The notes beneath the pieces were generated by a model. That model was not told where the DNA came from, ran no database searches, and saw only the letters and a list, made by a program, of their open reading frames with translations. From positions 1 to 24,465 of IMG/VR virus record IMGVR_UViG_3300009165_000547: a stretch of DNA of 24,465 nt; one strand, given 5' to 3'. This DNA comes from a virus. Below, one piece after another: positions 7,123-22,498 of the stretch (position 1 is the stretch's first letter; every line of letters starts with the position of its first letter). The position numbers and the translations under genes were made by a program.

Positions 7123-8370
7123 CTAAGCCTCGGTAATATCAAACAGGGCCATGTTGGACTGAGGGAACGTGGTTCCGTAGTTCCACCAGCCACGATAAAT
7201 CTCATAGAACGACTGATAACCCTCAAAGCGGTTAATGGTGCTGCCGCCGTAGTTATCCCAACCCTCAGGGCCACCGCTGTACTTAACCATGTAATTGCTG
7301 TTGGGCATATACAGGGTATTCGGGGCTGAACGGTAATCACCGTACAGGCGAATATCATGCCCGCTATAAGAGAAGCCGAGAGTTTCCGGCATACCCTCTT
7401 TGGCAGACATATTGACCGTGGGCTGCTGCTCATCACGGAAGGTGTTGTAAACCGCACGAAGCGTCTTGGGCGAACCCATAGCGAACTTGGGCAGTCTGGA
7501 CAGACCCACGTTGCCAACGCCGAGTTCAAGCAGTTCATAGAAACGGTCAAGGGTGAACGCCTCGGCAGTACCAGCGGAAGAACCGTACTTAACCGTGGCC
7601 TTGGCGTAGTTATAGGCATCACGATTAAGACCCTCAAAATCGCCATAATACGGGTCGGTGTCGGAACAAATGGTCTGGATGCCATTCGTAAATTTGGTGG
7701 TAGCGCTGGAAACGCTGGCGGTAAAGGTGTCCTCAATATAAACATTATTGGTATTGGCGACACTAGTGGACGTACCGCTAACGGTAACGGTCAGCGTGGT
7801 CGGGTTGATGTCGGTAATGGTAAGGCTATTGCCGGTAATTGTTCCAGCCGCACCCGTTGTATAAGTATCAATCCTCATGCCCACCCGCAGCCAGCGCACG
7901 GAATCTACGGTAAAGCCGCCAGCGGCATCATCATCGGAAGTGCAGGTAGCCAAAATGCCGTTGCCAGCAGTATGAATGGAATGGTCACGCAGAATACGGT
8001 AAACATCATAGGTGCCATTACGCAGGTCGAGCAGGTCGGTAACAATCGCCTCGGCACCCTTGCCCAGATGCACGGTTTCCTCGGAATACTTCATAATGGC
8101 AAGCAGTTTCTTGATATACAAAGAGCCTTTCGCATAGGCGGGCTGAACGCCAGCGGGATGCGCCACGTTCTCACCGGAATACCCGGCACTTTCGGGCAGT
8201 TGATACTGGAGCGTAAAATTCACCAGCGATTCGCCAGCGTGTTTCTGGGGATCGCACTTAATAAAATTAAAAAACCAATCCTCTTTGTTCACGCTCTGCG
8301 CCACTTTTTTCATGTGCGCTTCGCGGGTAGCGTTACTATAAGTTGAAAGTGTTGAAATATCGGAAGCCAT
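7123..8370 (-). CDS. Major capsid protein
   Basis: The 415-residue protein has a start preceded by TAGGAGA and lies between a scaffold-like gene and a decoration-like gene. The N-terminal half (KKVAQSVNKEDWFFNFIK, then ESLVNFTLQYQLPESAGY, then YIKKLLAIMKYSEETVHLGK) has the long-helix and extended-loop look of HK97-fold coat proteins. A Thr/Gly-rich beta region around residues 150-225 (GNSLTITDINPTTLTVTVSG) looks like an inserted surface domain. The C-terminal part contains PKFAMGSPKTLRAVYNTF, HDIRLYGDYRSAPNTLYM and an aromatic end. The assignment rests on order, length and pattern. The capsid is built from many copies on the scaffold and portal encoded just upstream. Confidence 0.85.
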   Translation of the reverse strand: MASDISTLSTYSNATREAHMKKVAQSVNKEDWFFNFIKCDPQKHAGESLVNFTLQYQLPESAGYSGENVAHPAGVQPAYAKGSLYIKKLLAIMKYSEETVHLGKGAEAIVTDLLDLRNGTYDVYRILRDHSIHTAGNGILATCTSDDDAAGGFTVDSVRWLRVGMRIDTYTTGAAGTITGNSLTITDINPTTLTVTVSGTSTSVANTNNVYIEDTFTASVSSATTKFTNGIQTICSDTDPYYGDFEGLNRDAYNYAKATVKYGSSAGTAEAFTLDRFYELLELGVGNVGLSRLPKFAMGSPKTLRAVYNTFRDEQQPTVNMSAKEGMPETLGFSYSGHDIRLYGDYRSAPNTLYMPNSNYMVKYSGGPEGWDNYGGSTINRFEGYQSFYEIYRGWWNYGTTFPQSNMALFDITEA

Positions 8371-11393: not shown

Positions 11394-11711
11394 CTACCAC
11401 CCTTTATCAATGGGCACTTCGTGGTACTCGCCGTCATCACACAACCGCCTGACTGTCGCCGGGGCATTTTCCTTAATCCTGACAATATCTTCTATCTTGG
11501 CGGCGAAGTCTTTATTGAATGTAACCTTGAAAAATGACACCATCTCTGCCATTTTAGCATTGTTATCTTCCAATGCGCCACGTATAAGTTGGCTTACCAC
11601 CCATTCCTGTTCGTTCAGTTTAAGAATTTTATGCAGAAACCACGCAATCCCGGCCAGCAGGGAGATAATCGAAATGCTAATAAAAGCGTTCAATATCACG
11701 ATAAGACTCAT
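11394..11711 (-). CDS. Small single-pass membrane protein
   Basis: The 105-residue protein starts at an ATG after AAGGGGGGT and overlaps the end of TerL by 35 bases; it ends just before the portal start. Residues 4-26 (IVILNAFISISIISLLAGIA) are a clear transmembrane helix. The remainder is a soluble helical domain (EWVVSQLIRGALEDNNAKMA, then EDIVRIKENAPATVRRL). A membrane protein inside the packaging block is unexpected. A holin- or inner-membrane spanin-like function is possible from shape alone, but no lysis gene is nearby. No lipobox or second hydrophobic segment is seen, and the family is not recognised. Confidence 0.75.
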   Translation of the reverse strand: MSLIVILNAFISISIISLLAGIAWFLHKILKLNEQEWVVSQLIRGALEDNNAKMAEMVSFFKVTFNKDFAAKIEDIVRIKENAPATVRRLCDDGEYHEVPIDKGW

Positions 11712-13290
11712 GTACCCCCCTTAAATTTTCAACGTCGTCATGGTGTTTCTTTCTCTCGTCATATTCCTTATTGATGGAAGCCCAAATACGGTGGTTTTCC
11801 TCGTTGTCCAAATCCTGTTGCGTCTTGATAATTTCCGGCTTGTATGCAATATCGAGAATATAGGCCATAGCGTCCATAAGGTCGTCGCCACGCCGCATAT
11901 CTTCGCCACGGAACTTATACATTTCATCTTCCAGTTTACGCAGGCCACGAACCATGAACAGCCGCCCATCTTCCAGAACGCTGGTCATGGCCTTTATGCG
12001 CTCCGGCTTGGTGCGGTTGCCTGGTTTCAGTTCTATTAGGCCAAAATTGATGCCGGTTCTGCGCTTTTCTTCGATGAGCCGTTTCTGCACAAATCCGAAT
12101 GAGCGAGTTTCAACGCCGACAACTTTCAGATTGTCCTTGAAGCGTTGTGCTACCTCAAATATTTTGTCGGTGGTTCCAGTATCTCCCCACTTGTCTTTCT
12201 CGGCGTATAGGACATAAAAATTGTTCTGCTGGTCAACCCCGATAACCACAATGGCACTATCGTCAGCCCACACCTGCTTGGAATAGGCGAAGTCGCAGAG
12301 CAGGAACACATTCATTTTCTTGTCAATATCATTCGGGCTAAAATAATTTACCTTGTCCAGATCGAAGCCGACGGAGCCGGGAGGCCTTGGGTCAAGCATG
12401 AACTGTCTGAGCCATGAGCCATAGGCCGATATGCCGTTGTCTATCTTCTCATCTCTGGTTTTCAAAACCTTATCAGTTGGAAATCTGTCATCCCAAATCG
12501 AGTTGCCTTCCGCTATGCCCAACATTTCAGACATGGGCTTTCCAACCCTGTCGTCGCCGTGGAAAACGCCGCCAATTCTATCGTCAACCAGTATCGGGTA
12601 GCGGAGCGTCATAACGCCGTGCCTGCGGCGGCTGATGCGCCGGGTAACGCAGTCATGGGCAAACGGAGTGCCGATAAGAATAATCGGCGCACCAGGCTCC
12701 ATAGCAGGCTCAACAACCTCGTCTATGTAGCGCACGTTTTGGTCAACAATGTCAATGGAATACGCTTCTTCGGGATTTTCCATGTCATCCCCGATGAAGC
12801 GGCCTATTCTGTTTTCCTTGTATCTAAGGCCAGTTTTCTGCGAGTTGCGGCCCCTGGACAATATCTGAAAATCAAACGGGTGTTCGCCGTCGCAACTCAT
12901 TTCAATCAACTGTTTCCTATCCTTTATCATCTTGGCATTGGGAAACATGATGGAGAATTTCTCCGACTTGAGAAAATCGGAGCAACGGCTTATGATTCTC
13001 TGCGCCGCATCATCGGCGTATGAGGTTATGACGGTGAACTTTAGGCCGTTGTAAACGCTGTCATGGGTGGTTAGCAGTTCGGAGATCAATAATGTTTTGG
13101 CCGCACCACGCATACACTCAATGACGATAATATTTACGTCCTTGGGCCTGTTCTGGATACGGTTAATCATGTCATAATGAAACGAGGCGAACTTGTTTTT
13201 AAAATACTGCGGTGCCCACACCCGACCGGCAAACAGCGGCTTTTCCTTGCAGGCAAGGTTTAGGTTATGCAGTTGTTCAGCGTCGTTCAT
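11677..13290 (-). CDS. Terminase large subunit (ATPase/nuclease)
   Basis: This 537-residue protein is the DNA-packaging motor that hydrolyses ATP and cuts the concatemer. Walker A is at residues 59-66 (CMRGAAKT) after a hydrophobic strand. Walker B is FIGDD at 165-169, followed by Glu171 as likely catalytic carboxylate. The coupling motif ILIGTPF is near 204-210. The RNase-H-like nuclease domain starts with LLCDFAYS (Asp333) and includes WADDSAIVVIGVD. It ends with RRGDDLMDAMAYIL (Asp469/470, Asp473), which fits the third acidic position. The length is typical of the family. The start ATG lacks a clear ribosome-binding site. The gene lies six bases after a 69-residue gene and overlaps the membrane-protein gene. 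Confidence 0.95.
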   Translation of the reverse strand: MNDAEQLHNLNLACKEKPLFAGRVWAPQYFKNKFASFHYDMINRIQNRPKDVNIIVIECMRGAAKTLLISELLTTHDSVYNGLKFTVITSYADDAAQRIISRCSDFLKSEKFSIMFPNAKMIKDRKQLIEMSCDGEHPFDFQILSRGRNSQKTGLRYKENRIGRFIGDDMENPEEAYSIDIVDQNVRYIDEVVEPAMEPGAPIILIGTPFAHDCVTRRISRRRHGVMTLRYPILVDDRIGGVFHGDDRVGKPMSEMLGIAEGNSIWDDRFPTDKVLKTRDEKIDNGISAYGSWLRQFMLDPRPPGSVGFDLDKVNYFSPNDIDKKMNVFLLCDFAYSKQVWADDSAIVVIGVDQQNNFYVLYAEKDKWGDTGTTDKIFEVAQRFKDNLKVVGVETRSFGFVQKRLIEEKRRTGINFGLIELKPGNRTKPERIKAMTSVLEDGRLFMVRGLRKLEDEMYKFRGEDMRRGDDLMDAMAYILDIAYKPEIIKTQQDLDNEENHRIWASINKEYDERKKHHDDVENLRGVHESYRDIERFY

Positions 13291-13296
13291 TGTTTT

Positions 13297-13506
13297 TTAT
13301 TTTGAAATATCCCATCCCCAACAAACACTCTCTGGCAGACTAACATCAATTATTCGATAGTATTTGTTTTTAAAAAACGAAATCTCAAAAAAATACAAAC
13401 ACACCCTTAAAATATTGTCGTGTCTTGAAATTGAAATCGCTCCTGGCCCGAAAATCTTATGTAATCGGCGTAGATCATGGCTTAATTTTTTAAACTGAAT
13501 AATCAT
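13297..13506 (-). CDS. Hypothetical small protein between terminase genes
   Basis: The 69-residue protein starts with an ATGA overlap with the stop of the small-terminase gene, implying translational coupling, and ends six bases before TerL. It is basic in the N-terminal half (MIIQFKKLSHDLRRLHKIFG) and aromatic in the second half (LYFFEISFFKNKYYRIIDV), with a CWGWD end. I do not recognise it. Its fixed position between the two terminase genes suggests a packaging accessory role, which is inference. Confidence 0.65.
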   Translation of the reverse strand: MIIQFKKLSHDLRRLHKIFGPGAISISRHDNILRVCLYFFEISFFKNKYYRIIDVSLPESVCWGWDISK

Positions 13507-14195
13507 TGTTTTATTTCTTCCAAGTCAATCGGCTTGTTAAAGTAATTCTCTTTAACCATAGACTTTTCAGCGTCCAAGGCCACGCCACGGTTTTGTTCAC
13601 CCTGAGAACGGGCGTAGTCGTTGGCCTCTTTGATTATCTCTTGCGGCAAGTCAAGCCCCTTTCGCTTAGATGCCCTATCCTTGTTCTTTTCCTCGTAATA
13701 GTTCTTGTACGCCTCGATACTGCGTATATCGCCACGGTCTATGTTCACTCCCCACTTATACATGGCAAGGGGATACAGGCCGAGCATACGCTTTTCCATG
13801 TCTGCATTGATAAAGTCGGTAACTTCTGGGGCATTTTTCCACGCAATCAGTGTATTGTGGGAAACTCCGAGGATCGGGGCCGCCTCTTCTAATGTTTGTG
13901 GATTTCTAAGGTGCGCCGGGGTCTCCAGCCAACGGGCATACGCCATCTTTTCGTCATAATAGACAAATGTGCGCCGCCCAGACATGGCCTTGAACATGGC
14001 GTATTCCTCTGCCAGATTGCAGGGGTCTTTGAAATTGAGGTATTCAAGGACAGTTTGGTTGATAATGCCGGAGCCGCCGTCAATTTTTTCTACTGCCGCC
14101 TTGCTTGCGGCATCTTGGCGATCTTTTTTCTCTTGTTTGGTGGCGGCCCTGCGTCTATTCTCAAACTCTTTTTCTTCTTCCGACATGGCCGACAC
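13503..14195 (-). CDS. Terminase small subunit
   Basis: From the GTG at 14195 the protein has 230 residues (ATG alternative at 14186). The N-terminal 35 residues are highly charged. A helix-turn-helix lies at about 101-122 (TLEEAAPILGVSHNTLIAWK), as in small terminases that recognise the packaging site. A helical oligomerisation-like region follows (LYPLAMYKWGVNIDRGDIRS, then EAYKNYYEEKNKD). Neither start has a ribosome-binding site. The same frame stays open upstream to 14333 and encodes a Cys/His-containing segment (CPYIYKEG at the start, GLCAAHARQ at the end) with no ATG, GTG or TTG, so the true N-terminus is probably longer. The gene lies directly before TerL, as usual, and is coupled to the 69-residue gene by ATGA. 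Confidence 0.82.
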   Translation of the reverse strand: MSAMSEEEKEFENRRRAATKQEKKDRQDAASKAAVEKIDGGSGIINQTVLEYLNFKDPCNLAEEYAMFKAMSGRRTFVYYDEKMAYARWLETPAHLRNPQTLEEAAPILGVSHNTLIAWKNAPEVTDFINADMEKRMLGLYPLAMYKWGVNIDRGDIRSIEAYKNYYEEKNKDRASKRKGLDLPQEIIKEANDYARSQGEQNRGVALDAEKSMVKENYFNKPIDLEEIKQ

Positions 14196-14329
14196 TTGCC
14201 GAGCGTGTGCCGCGCACAGACCGCCCCATCTTATCGAGCCATAAGCCGAATTGCACTTGTCGCCTATGCTTACCTTACCAGACTTAACGGCTTCATCGCC
14301 CTCTTTGTAGATATATGGGCAATTAATTA

Positions 14330-14638
14330 TTATTTACCGTAATCTGGATTATCCCTTGTTCGCAGATAAACAATAGCCCTAGCCAAACTGTTAATGTTAT
14401 CCTTGAATAATCCAATCCCCAAATTGCAGTAGTGGCACAAAAGGCCACGAATGTTCCCGGTAGTATGGTTATGATCTACAACAAGTCTCTTTGTGCCAAT
14501 TGGCTCATTACCGCAAATGGCACATTTTCCACCAGACCATGCAAGCATCATGGCGTAGTCCTCTTTTGATACCTTCCGGCACAGTTTGATATGTTTTGTA
14601 CCTTCGCTAGCCTTTTTCTTTTTGCGCCCTTTCTTCAT
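14330..14638 (-). CDS. HNH endonuclease, recombination endonuclease VII type
   Basis: The 102-residue protein opens with a very basic tail (MKKGRKKKKA). The zinc and catalytic core is complete: CAICG at residues 39-43, VDHNHTTG at 54-61 with the HNH-type DH-N-H, IRGLLCHYCN at 63-72, then GLFKD and an ending helix ARAIVYLR. This is the endonuclease VII family pattern (T4 gp49 relatives) that cleaves branched DNA or supports terminase cleavage. It is the first gene of the late operon, next to the small terminase, a common arrangement. There is no ribosome-binding site before the ATG. A TTGACA box lies about 36 bases upstream, so the leader is probably only a few bases. Confidence 0.9.
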   Translation of the reverse strand: MKKGRKKKKASEGTKHIKLCRKVSKEDYAMMLAWSGGKCAICGNEPIGTKRLVVDHNHTTGNIRGLLCHYCNLGIGLFKDNINSLARAIVYLRTRDNPDYGK

Positions 14639-14650
14639 TTTTATATACTT

Positions 14651-14679
14651 GGGATAGTATAAATTTTACCCATTGTCAA
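14651..14679 (-). promoter_or_regulatory. Candidate late promoter
   Basis: On the minus strand a perfect -35 box TTGACA occupies 14679-14674. With 17-base spacing the -10 would be TATCCC (14656-14651), a poor match; a better hexamer, TATACT (14661-14656), is only 12 bases away. The weak -10 spacing suggests that activation by a phage factor is needed. The predicted transcript would start within about ten bases of the HNH start codon. Confidence 0.4.
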
Positions 14680-14745
14680 CTATTTGTGGGAAATAATTAC
14701 ACGGTCGTATAAATATTATCCGACCTAAAGTAGCGTAAATATTAC
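14657..14745. promoter_or_regulatory. Three operator-like sites
   Basis: Related elements are centred at about 14664 (GTATAAATTTTACC, 14657-14670), 14714 (CGTATAAATATTATCCG, 14706-14722) and 14740 (GTAAATATTAC, 14735-14745). The middle one lies inside a near-perfect 23-bp palindrome (14703-14725) with GGTCG/CGACC arms. Centre spacings are 50 and 26 bases. The sites flank and overlap the candidate late promoter, consistent with cooperative repressor or activator binding. Confidence 0.5.
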
Positions 14746-14779
14746 ACAAAATACTTTTTTTACATAAATAAGTTTGTTG

Positions 14780-14808
14780 TTGAAATATCTCGGTAATTAT
14801 ACTATTAT
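14780..14808 (+). promoter_or_regulatory. Early promoter, probably leaderless
   Basis: TTGAAA (14780-14785), a 17-base spacer and TATTAT (14803-14808) match the sigma70 consensus at 5 of 6 positions each. The start codon of the first early gene begins seven bases after the -10 box, on the expected +1. No ribosome-binding site precedes it. Confidence 0.65.
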
Positions 14809-14814
14809 TGTGGC

Positions 14815-15033
14815 ATGGAAACAAAATGGATTTCTGTTAAGGATCGGTTGCCGGAAGATGGGGTGGAGGTTTTGATTACAGATGGGGAAAACATCGATGT
14901 TTCTTTTTGCGAATTAACATATTTCGGTGACGATCCAAACGAAATGGAGTGGTTCGGTAGAATTAGTCCGTGGCATTTTGGCAATATAACCCATTGGATG
15001 CCGCTACCCGAACTGCCGAAAGGAGTAAAATGA
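14815..15033 (+). CDS. DUF551 family protein
   Basis: This 72-residue protein is the first gene of the early operon. It carries the DUF551 signature at both ends: WISVKDRLPEDGVEVLI near the N-terminus and HWMPLPELPKG near the C-terminus, with aromatic residues between. DUF551 proteins are common small phage and prophage proteins of unknown biochemical role. No ribosome-binding site is present; the predicted transcription start coincides with the A of the ATG, so translation is probably leaderless. Its stop overlaps the next gene's start as ATGA. Confidence 0.87.
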   Translation: METKWISVKDRLPEDGVEVLITDGENIDVSFCELTYFGDDPNEMEWFGRISPWHFGNITHWMPLPELPKGVK

Positions 15034-21682: not shown

Positions 21683-22498
21683 ATGTGTAAAGCATTTTCG
21701 GCTATTGTAAAGAAGAACGGTGATGTATTGTGGAAATTCGGCATGGATTCTCATTCCGACATTTTGAAACATTTTAATATCCCAGACAATGAGGATGAAA
21801 AAGAAAGGCTTGAATTTGCCAGGATCGAAATATCTCCGGCAAACAATAACTATCTTAAACCAGACAAATGGCAATTCAAACTCGATGAAAGCATAACCCC
21901 GGCCTGGTGGACAAAATCATATCAAGTATTTTCGGAAACCGAACACAAAAAATGGCTGAAACAATTTCATAAAATAATTATTAACAAAGAGATTGTAATT
22001 CCATTTAATATCGTGCCGCCCAAAAAAGTTTTAAAAAAACATATTGCTCTGTTAAAAGAATGGGGCAGCGTTTTGGACAGCGTTGGGGACAGCGTTTGGG
22101 ACAGCGTTAGGGACAGCGTTGGGGACAGCGTTGGGGAAAGCGTTTGGGACAGCGTTAGGGACAGCGTTAGGGACAGCGTGTGGGACAGCGTGTGGGCCAG
22201 CGTTAGGGACAGCGTTGGGGACAGCGTGTGGGACAGAGTGTGGGCCAGCGTGTGGGCCAGCGCGTGGGCCAGCGCGTGGGCCTATGCCGGATCATTTTTT
22301 AATCTTCCCAGAGATTCTTGGGAATACACCGAAAAAATTGATACAAAAAAATATCCATTCCAGCCGTTAGTTAATTTATGGGAAATGGGAATTGTGCCAT
22401 CATTTGATGACACTACTTGGCGGCTTCATGCCGGAAAAGATGCCAAGATAATTTTTGAAATATCGCAGAAAGACCTAAAAGGTAAGGAGTTGAAATAA
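21683..22498 (+). CDS. MCKAFSAIV-type phage protein with tetrapeptide repeats
   Basis: This 271-residue protein has a strong AAAGGAGG site. The first 120 residues ([20 protein letters not shown], then [20 protein letters not shown] and ITPAWW) match a phage-borne protein type I have seen before, with no known function. Residues 129-200 are 18 tandem tetrapeptides of pattern S-V-x-D/A with Trp, Arg or Gly in the variable position. The C-terminal 70 residues are unique ([20 protein letters not shown], then [13 protein letters not shown]). The repeat probably forms a regular helix or solenoid whose variable position displays Trp and Arg. The stop overlaps the next start. Confidence 0.78.
22067..22282 (+). 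repeat. 18 tandem 12-base units within a coding region
   Basis: The array consists of 18 in-frame units of about AGCGTTNGGGAC. Units 1-14 mostly end in GAC (Asp); later units carry GTGTGGGCC and then GCGTGGGCC, so Asp gives way to Ala and Val to Ala. The gradient in unit composition indicates stepwise duplication. The array is prone to copy-number change. Confidence 0.9.

Follow-up and report, generated by a model that had tools for sequence, protein, structure and literature searches.

A phage terS frame that stays open upstream of its first standard start codons, as far as an Endonuclease VII-type HNH gene

Endonuclease VII-type HNH genes stand directly before phage genes of quite different function: terS in Synechococcus phage 7B11-B and in the Mycobacterium prophage prophiGD43A-4, a DNA polymerase gene in PZL-Ah8, and an internal virion protein gene in Tarrare and Rambo. 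A related arrangement is described for Hafnia phage Ca, where an HNH gene in the packaging block, between a lysis gene and TerL, overlaps its neighbouring ORFs; starts there are predicted at GTG/ATG and the empty site is known (PMC8861465). Prokaryotic ribosomes are considered to re-initiate frequently where the intercistronic distance is short (PMC5972666). Starts at AUU or AUA, very rare in bacteria, are documented for the E. coli genes infC and pcnB (PMC9410913, PMC1780047) and for infC, cvfC1 and ccpN in S. aureus, in which an extended Shine-Dalgarno (SD) sequence supports the weak codon and reporters starting at AUU or AUA give ~10–30% of the AUG yield (PMC13009471). In the available part of a review of phage TerS, the HTH is N-terminal and zinc fingers are mentioned only for the herpesvirus TerS (PMC9611059).

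The window analyzed here is one complete virus record from IMG/VR, 24,465 bases long and of metagenomic origin, in which an Endonuclease VII-type HNH gene is followed by terS on the same strand (Table 1). As in the pairs above, a PF02945 protein lies directly ahead of the next gene, whose open frame reaches the HNH stop; the relatives differ in that their next gene has an ATG, GTG or TTG, often with an SD inside the HNH 3′ end, whereas here neither is found at the HNH stop. Like that of Hafnia phage Ca, the HNH gene is part of a packaging block and in contact with the next reading frame, but we find no empty-site relative of the insertion in the collections searched. The reading we prefer, to which we assign a probability of roughly 40%, is that the open frame is a genuine 5′ part of terS and that translation of TerS starts at the HNH stop, likely by SD-less re-initiation at ATA or ATT.

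An HNH gene that touches the terS frame

The HNH protein matches PF02945 at 79.1 bits against a curated cut-off of 23.6, and its gene adds to the cases in which an Endonuclease VII-type HNH gene is placed at the beginning of another phage gene: it is located at a 5′ gene boundary, like the sampled relatives, with the TerS frame touching its stop. That sample comprises 17 homologous HNH genes from phages infecting many hosts, each paired with the same-strand gene that follows it, and is small, non-random, drawn from partly related phages and dependent on annotators' start calls. The next gene overlaps the HNH end by 1–20 nt in 12 of the 17 pairs, among them two terS genes (7B11-B, −11; prophiGD43A-4, −8), and otherwise begins at +10 (one pair) or at +46 to +71 (four pairs), with none beyond 71 nt. 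In the window, the codons ATA, ATA and ATT lie at −4, −1 and +2 relative to the HNH stop and the first GTG and ATG of the TerS frame at +134 and +143, respectively, and gaps of 51–94 nt exist in the late block, mostly before SD-bearing genes. On this comparison, the positions of the neighbours would argue, indirectly, against a TerS start at GTG 14195 or ATG 14186. The sampled pairs suggest an annotation rule, namely that behind Endonuclease VII-type HNH genes the next start be sought at the HNH stop.

Table 1. Features of the HNH–terS–TerL region discussed in the text (window coordinates).
Feature	Coordinates	Strand	Basis and remarks
Endonuclease VII-type HNH gene, 102 aa, no SD	14330..14638	-	PF02945 79.1 bits, E 2.3e-22; PHROG 2914 E 1.4e-28
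TAA closing the TerS frame upstream; landing codon for a −1 slip out of the HNH gene	14334..14336	-	sequence
Candidate non-standard starts ATA 14333, ATA 14330, ATT 14327	14325..14333	-	sequence; overlapping the HNH stop or 2 nt behind it
Stretch of 49 open codons ahead of ATG 14186 (46 codons before GTG 14195), probable 5′ part of terS	14187..14333	-	C-x21-C-x12-C-x2-H; open frame, translation, ambiguous codon score (best of six frames), shuffles
GTG, first standard start codon of the TerS frame	14193..14195	-	no SD; G+C-rich upstream
ATG, first ATG of the TerS frame	14184..14186	-	no SD
TerS part, highly charged, clearly coding, predicted helical at low confidence	13998..14186	-	+0.37 bits per codon; low-confidence model
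TerS core with HTH region	13503..13997	-	46.8% identity to annotated DNA-packaging protein; weak PHROG terminase small subunit matches
Terminase large subunit (TerL)	11677..13290	-	PHROG 38 E 9.8e-57

The C-terminus of the HNH protein (14330–14345, minus strand), ...YLRTRDNPDYGK, resembles ...YLSTNGHYGT and ...YLLDKGHYGK of Synechococcus phage 7B11-B, in which the Tyr-Gly codons of the HNH gene (TATGG) provide the ATG of the next gene; the corresponding Tyr codon here is TAC, which yields no ATG, and its position is also outside the TerS frame. In several HNH genes of this type (L028, L037, L041), the SD (GGAGG) of the overlapping next gene codes for the conserved C-terminal residues, EG or GG, that follow AI[KT]YL. 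The idea that the HNH gene is an intron-borne homing endonuclease was discarded, as no Rfam intron match is present in 13900–15000 at E values up to 10.

Coding potential of the open stretch

Read on the minus strand, the TerS frame contains no stop from below TAA 14336–14334 down to GTG 14195, and zero in-frame ATG, GTG or TTG codons upstream of that GTG, just as a prior sequence-only reading of this DNA had described; the translation runs IIINCPYIYKEGDEAVKSGKVSIGDKCNSAYGSIRWGGLCAAHARQ, then V (GTG 14195) followed by SA, then M (ATG 14186) followed by SEEEK. Scored with a codon model built on eleven window genes, 14333–14187 has +0.04 bits per codon in this frame, the best of six, and −0.12 to −0.40 in the other five. 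The in-frame value lies at about the 5% tail whether compared with true-frame or with wrong-frame segments, and the codon statistics of the stretch are ambiguous. The adjoining 14186–13998, at +0.37 bits per codon, is clearly coding, and the start of TerS must therefore lie at or upstream of 14186. Dinucleotide-preserving shuffles of the stretch leave the frame open in 5.0% of cases, reproduce a loose C..C..C-x2-H/C pattern in 0.5% and combine pattern and openness in 0.06%, where the Cys/His motif is a post hoc choice. A separate small gene in another frame was considered and rejected, the other two forward frames holding 4–5 stops. The openness of the frame, its rank among the six, the outlying contexts of GTG 14195 and ATG 14186 (see below) and the positional habit of the HNH neighbours lend indirect support to the stretch belonging to TerS, and we estimate at about two in three the chance that it is the TerS N-terminus, now or recently.

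The spacing of the Cys and His residues is C-x21-C-x12-C-x2-H, and not the C-x18-C-x11-C-x2-H counted in the sequence-only reading, which had likened the layout to small zinc-binding modules; the three Cys and the His are present, but the spacing was wrong, and neither a family match nor a homologue accompanies them. Searches of the stretch against Pfam and PHROG at E values up to 10 return zero family matches, and weak NCBIfam matches at E 0.13 or higher, with scores near 11 bits where the cut-offs run into the hundreds, were treated as noise. Translated in all six frames, the window contains three further patterns similar to C..C..C-x2-H, none of them in a frame that would otherwise pass for a gene. 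Structure models of the stretch reach a pLDDT of 71 in the best case and 52–58 in the other four, with no fold match found for them, and an AlphaFold model of the full TerS protein (pLDDT 38) is uninformative. A duplicated copy of the HNH zinc site within the stretch was also considered and dropped, since 43% of shuffles score equally well. A zinc finger at this site is at present an unproven reading of the Cys/His residues.

Where TerS translation may begin

AGGAG-type SDs lie upstream of most genes in this phage, and most window genes form anti-SD duplexes of −5 to −12 kcal/mol. GTG 14195 and ATG 14186 form one of only −1.7 kcal/mol, which bears out the earlier remark that neither has a ribosome-binding site. 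The 20 bases upstream of these two codons are 25–30% A+T, as compared to 45–90% at all 25 other window starts, and only 1 of those 25 has more stably folded surroundings. Such an outlier context is as expected for sequence inside a gene, and the upstream context argues, indirectly, against a TerS start at either codon. The strongest SD-like pairing among the candidate codons (−7.6 kcal/mol) is found at CTG 14219, in frame, with a spacing that is apparently too short. Further downstream, AGAGGA (anti-SD −6.0 kcal/mol) precedes an in-frame ATG (13995–13997, minus strand) from which TerS would be ~164 residues long, near the 168-residue TerS of MW202803; since the sequence above this ATG is strongly coding, it could at most serve as an additional, internal start.

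At the 5′ end of the open stretch, the HNH stop (TAA, 14332–14330) overlaps ATA 14333 by 4 nt and ATA 14330 by 1 nt, and ATT 14327, 2 nt on, is the only candidate past it; the three codons had been placed immediately after the stop, which is right for ATT and not for the two ATA codons. Their contexts are A+T-rich, weakly folded and within the normal range for this phage, with an anti-SD pairing of only −3.0 kcal/mol. We infer that a mobile Endonuclease VII-type HNH gene came to lie directly before terS with its 3′ end at the terS start, that ribosomes finishing HNH would re-initiate without a Shine-Dalgarno sequence at ATA 14333, ATA 14330 or ATT 14327, and that the product would be a low-yield protein with (M)NCPYIYKEG... 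at its N-terminus, or with one or two further residues ahead of it. If used, these would be the same codons as in the bacterial AUU/AUA starts of E. coli and S. aureus, likewise with low yield; the S. aureus cases, however, carry extended SDs and were established by experiment, while ours carries none and is deduced from the genome. The absence of an SD at ATA/ATT is the main weakness of re-initiation as an explanation, softened only in part by the frequency of re-initiation and by HNH and TerL, genes of the same block, which also lack an SD. Unlike most genes here, both the TerL (13290, minus strand) and the HNH (14638, minus strand) start combine the lack of an SD with an A+T-rich, weakly folded leader.

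If re-initiation at the HNH stop is real, this would be a case of a free-standing mobile endonuclease gene established exactly where a packaging gene begins, with translation of the packaging gene made dependent on the mobile gene through a start codon that gene finders miss. The fullest version of this proposal, in which a packaging gene naturally starts at AUA/AUU, without an SD, via ribosomes terminating on HNH, and also gains an undescribed zinc-binding N-terminal domain, is doubtful as a whole.

A lost start is nearly equal in standing to re-initiation at ATA/ATT, if still a tentative reading by itself: the HNH gene or a later mutation would have removed the original start, leaving TerS to be made weakly from GTG 14195, ATG 14186 or possibly CTG 14219, with the stretch as a recent fossil. 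In its favour, the coding-like signals of the stretch apply here too, with a weak score, standard codons are available at 14195 and 14186, and ATA/ATT lack an SD; moreover, the HNH gene of Hafnia phage Ca, overlapping both neighbours and present or absent in one culture, indicates that such insertions reshape gene ends (PMC8861465). Against this reading, GTG and ATG have no SD and a context unlike that of all other starts, and 46 codons are still free of stops, so that the loss would have to be recent.

An untranslated leader is less probable. Here TerS would start at GTG 14195 or ATG 14186 without an SD, and 14196–14329 would be intergenic, open by chance and perhaps carrying packaging signals, a view consistent with the 5% chance of openness, a codon score that overlaps wrong-frame values, the chance recurrence of C..C..C-x2-H patterns and the few other genes that also lack an SD. 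It must contend with the outlying start contexts, with the fact that none of the 17 gaps between HNH and next gene exceeds 71 nt, and with the stretch itself, in which no RNA structure, terminator or notable repeats were found. We regard a sequence error or minority variant, where the real or dominant phage has a standard start at the HNH stop that is missing from the assembly, as more unlikely again: the record is a single metagenomic one with no second copy and the candidates sit exactly where the next gene of the HNH relatives starts, but wrong bases are rare in assembled short-read contigs. Finally, a programmed −1 frameshift near the HNH end yielding an HNH–TerS fusion, as had been suggested before, fits the TerS frame being −1 relative to HNH and touching it at 14333–14330, but is essentially excluded because the landing codon is TAA 14336–14334, which a tandem slip would put in the A site, while GGT AAA is not a slippery X-XXY-YYZ heptamer, a P-site slip would require Lys-tRNA to re-pair from AAA to UAA, and no unusual RNA structure lies downstream (z −0.25).

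TerS relatives and the packaging block

Over a stretch of 47 residues, the TerS core shares 46.8% identity (E 5e-5) with a protein annotated for DNA packaging, and its matches to PHROG terminase small subunits are weak (E 0.013–0.015). With the HTH-type small terminases of MW202803 (annotated as DNA-packaging protein) and L027, it shares the motif W-L-x2-P-x2-L-R-x-P-x-T-x-E-E ... L-G-V-S ... W, and in each case TerL and portal follow, here with one small ORF between TerS and TerL. The difference is at the N-terminus, where our TerS has ~110 residues ahead of the HTH region, made up of the charged, helix-like part and the Cys/His stretch, whereas in the two distant TerS relatives the protein starts close to the HTH, with no such extension. 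The small ORF (69 codons, 13297–13506, minus strand) overlaps the TerS stop by 4 nt, has no PHROG match and has a negative codon score.

We find no homologue of the stretch in phages, plasmids, IMG/VR or GTDB genomes, including by tblastn of phages and plasmids, where the matches that do appear are antisense to annotated genes. Scans of IMG/VR and GTDB with TerS, the stretch, TerL, the major capsid protein, portal and an HTH alignment give no usable relative, an alignment of TerL was too divergent for scanning, and two custom HTH DNA patterns return chance matches or one distant TerS without the extension. No close relative of this phage is present in the collections searched. Its major capsid protein (7123–8370, minus strand) matches PHROG 14242 and has no match among 50,697 phage records. 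Elsewhere in the window, a 12-base tandem repeat of 17.8 copies (22061–22274, plus strand) lies inside the ORF 21683–22498 and encodes protein repeats.
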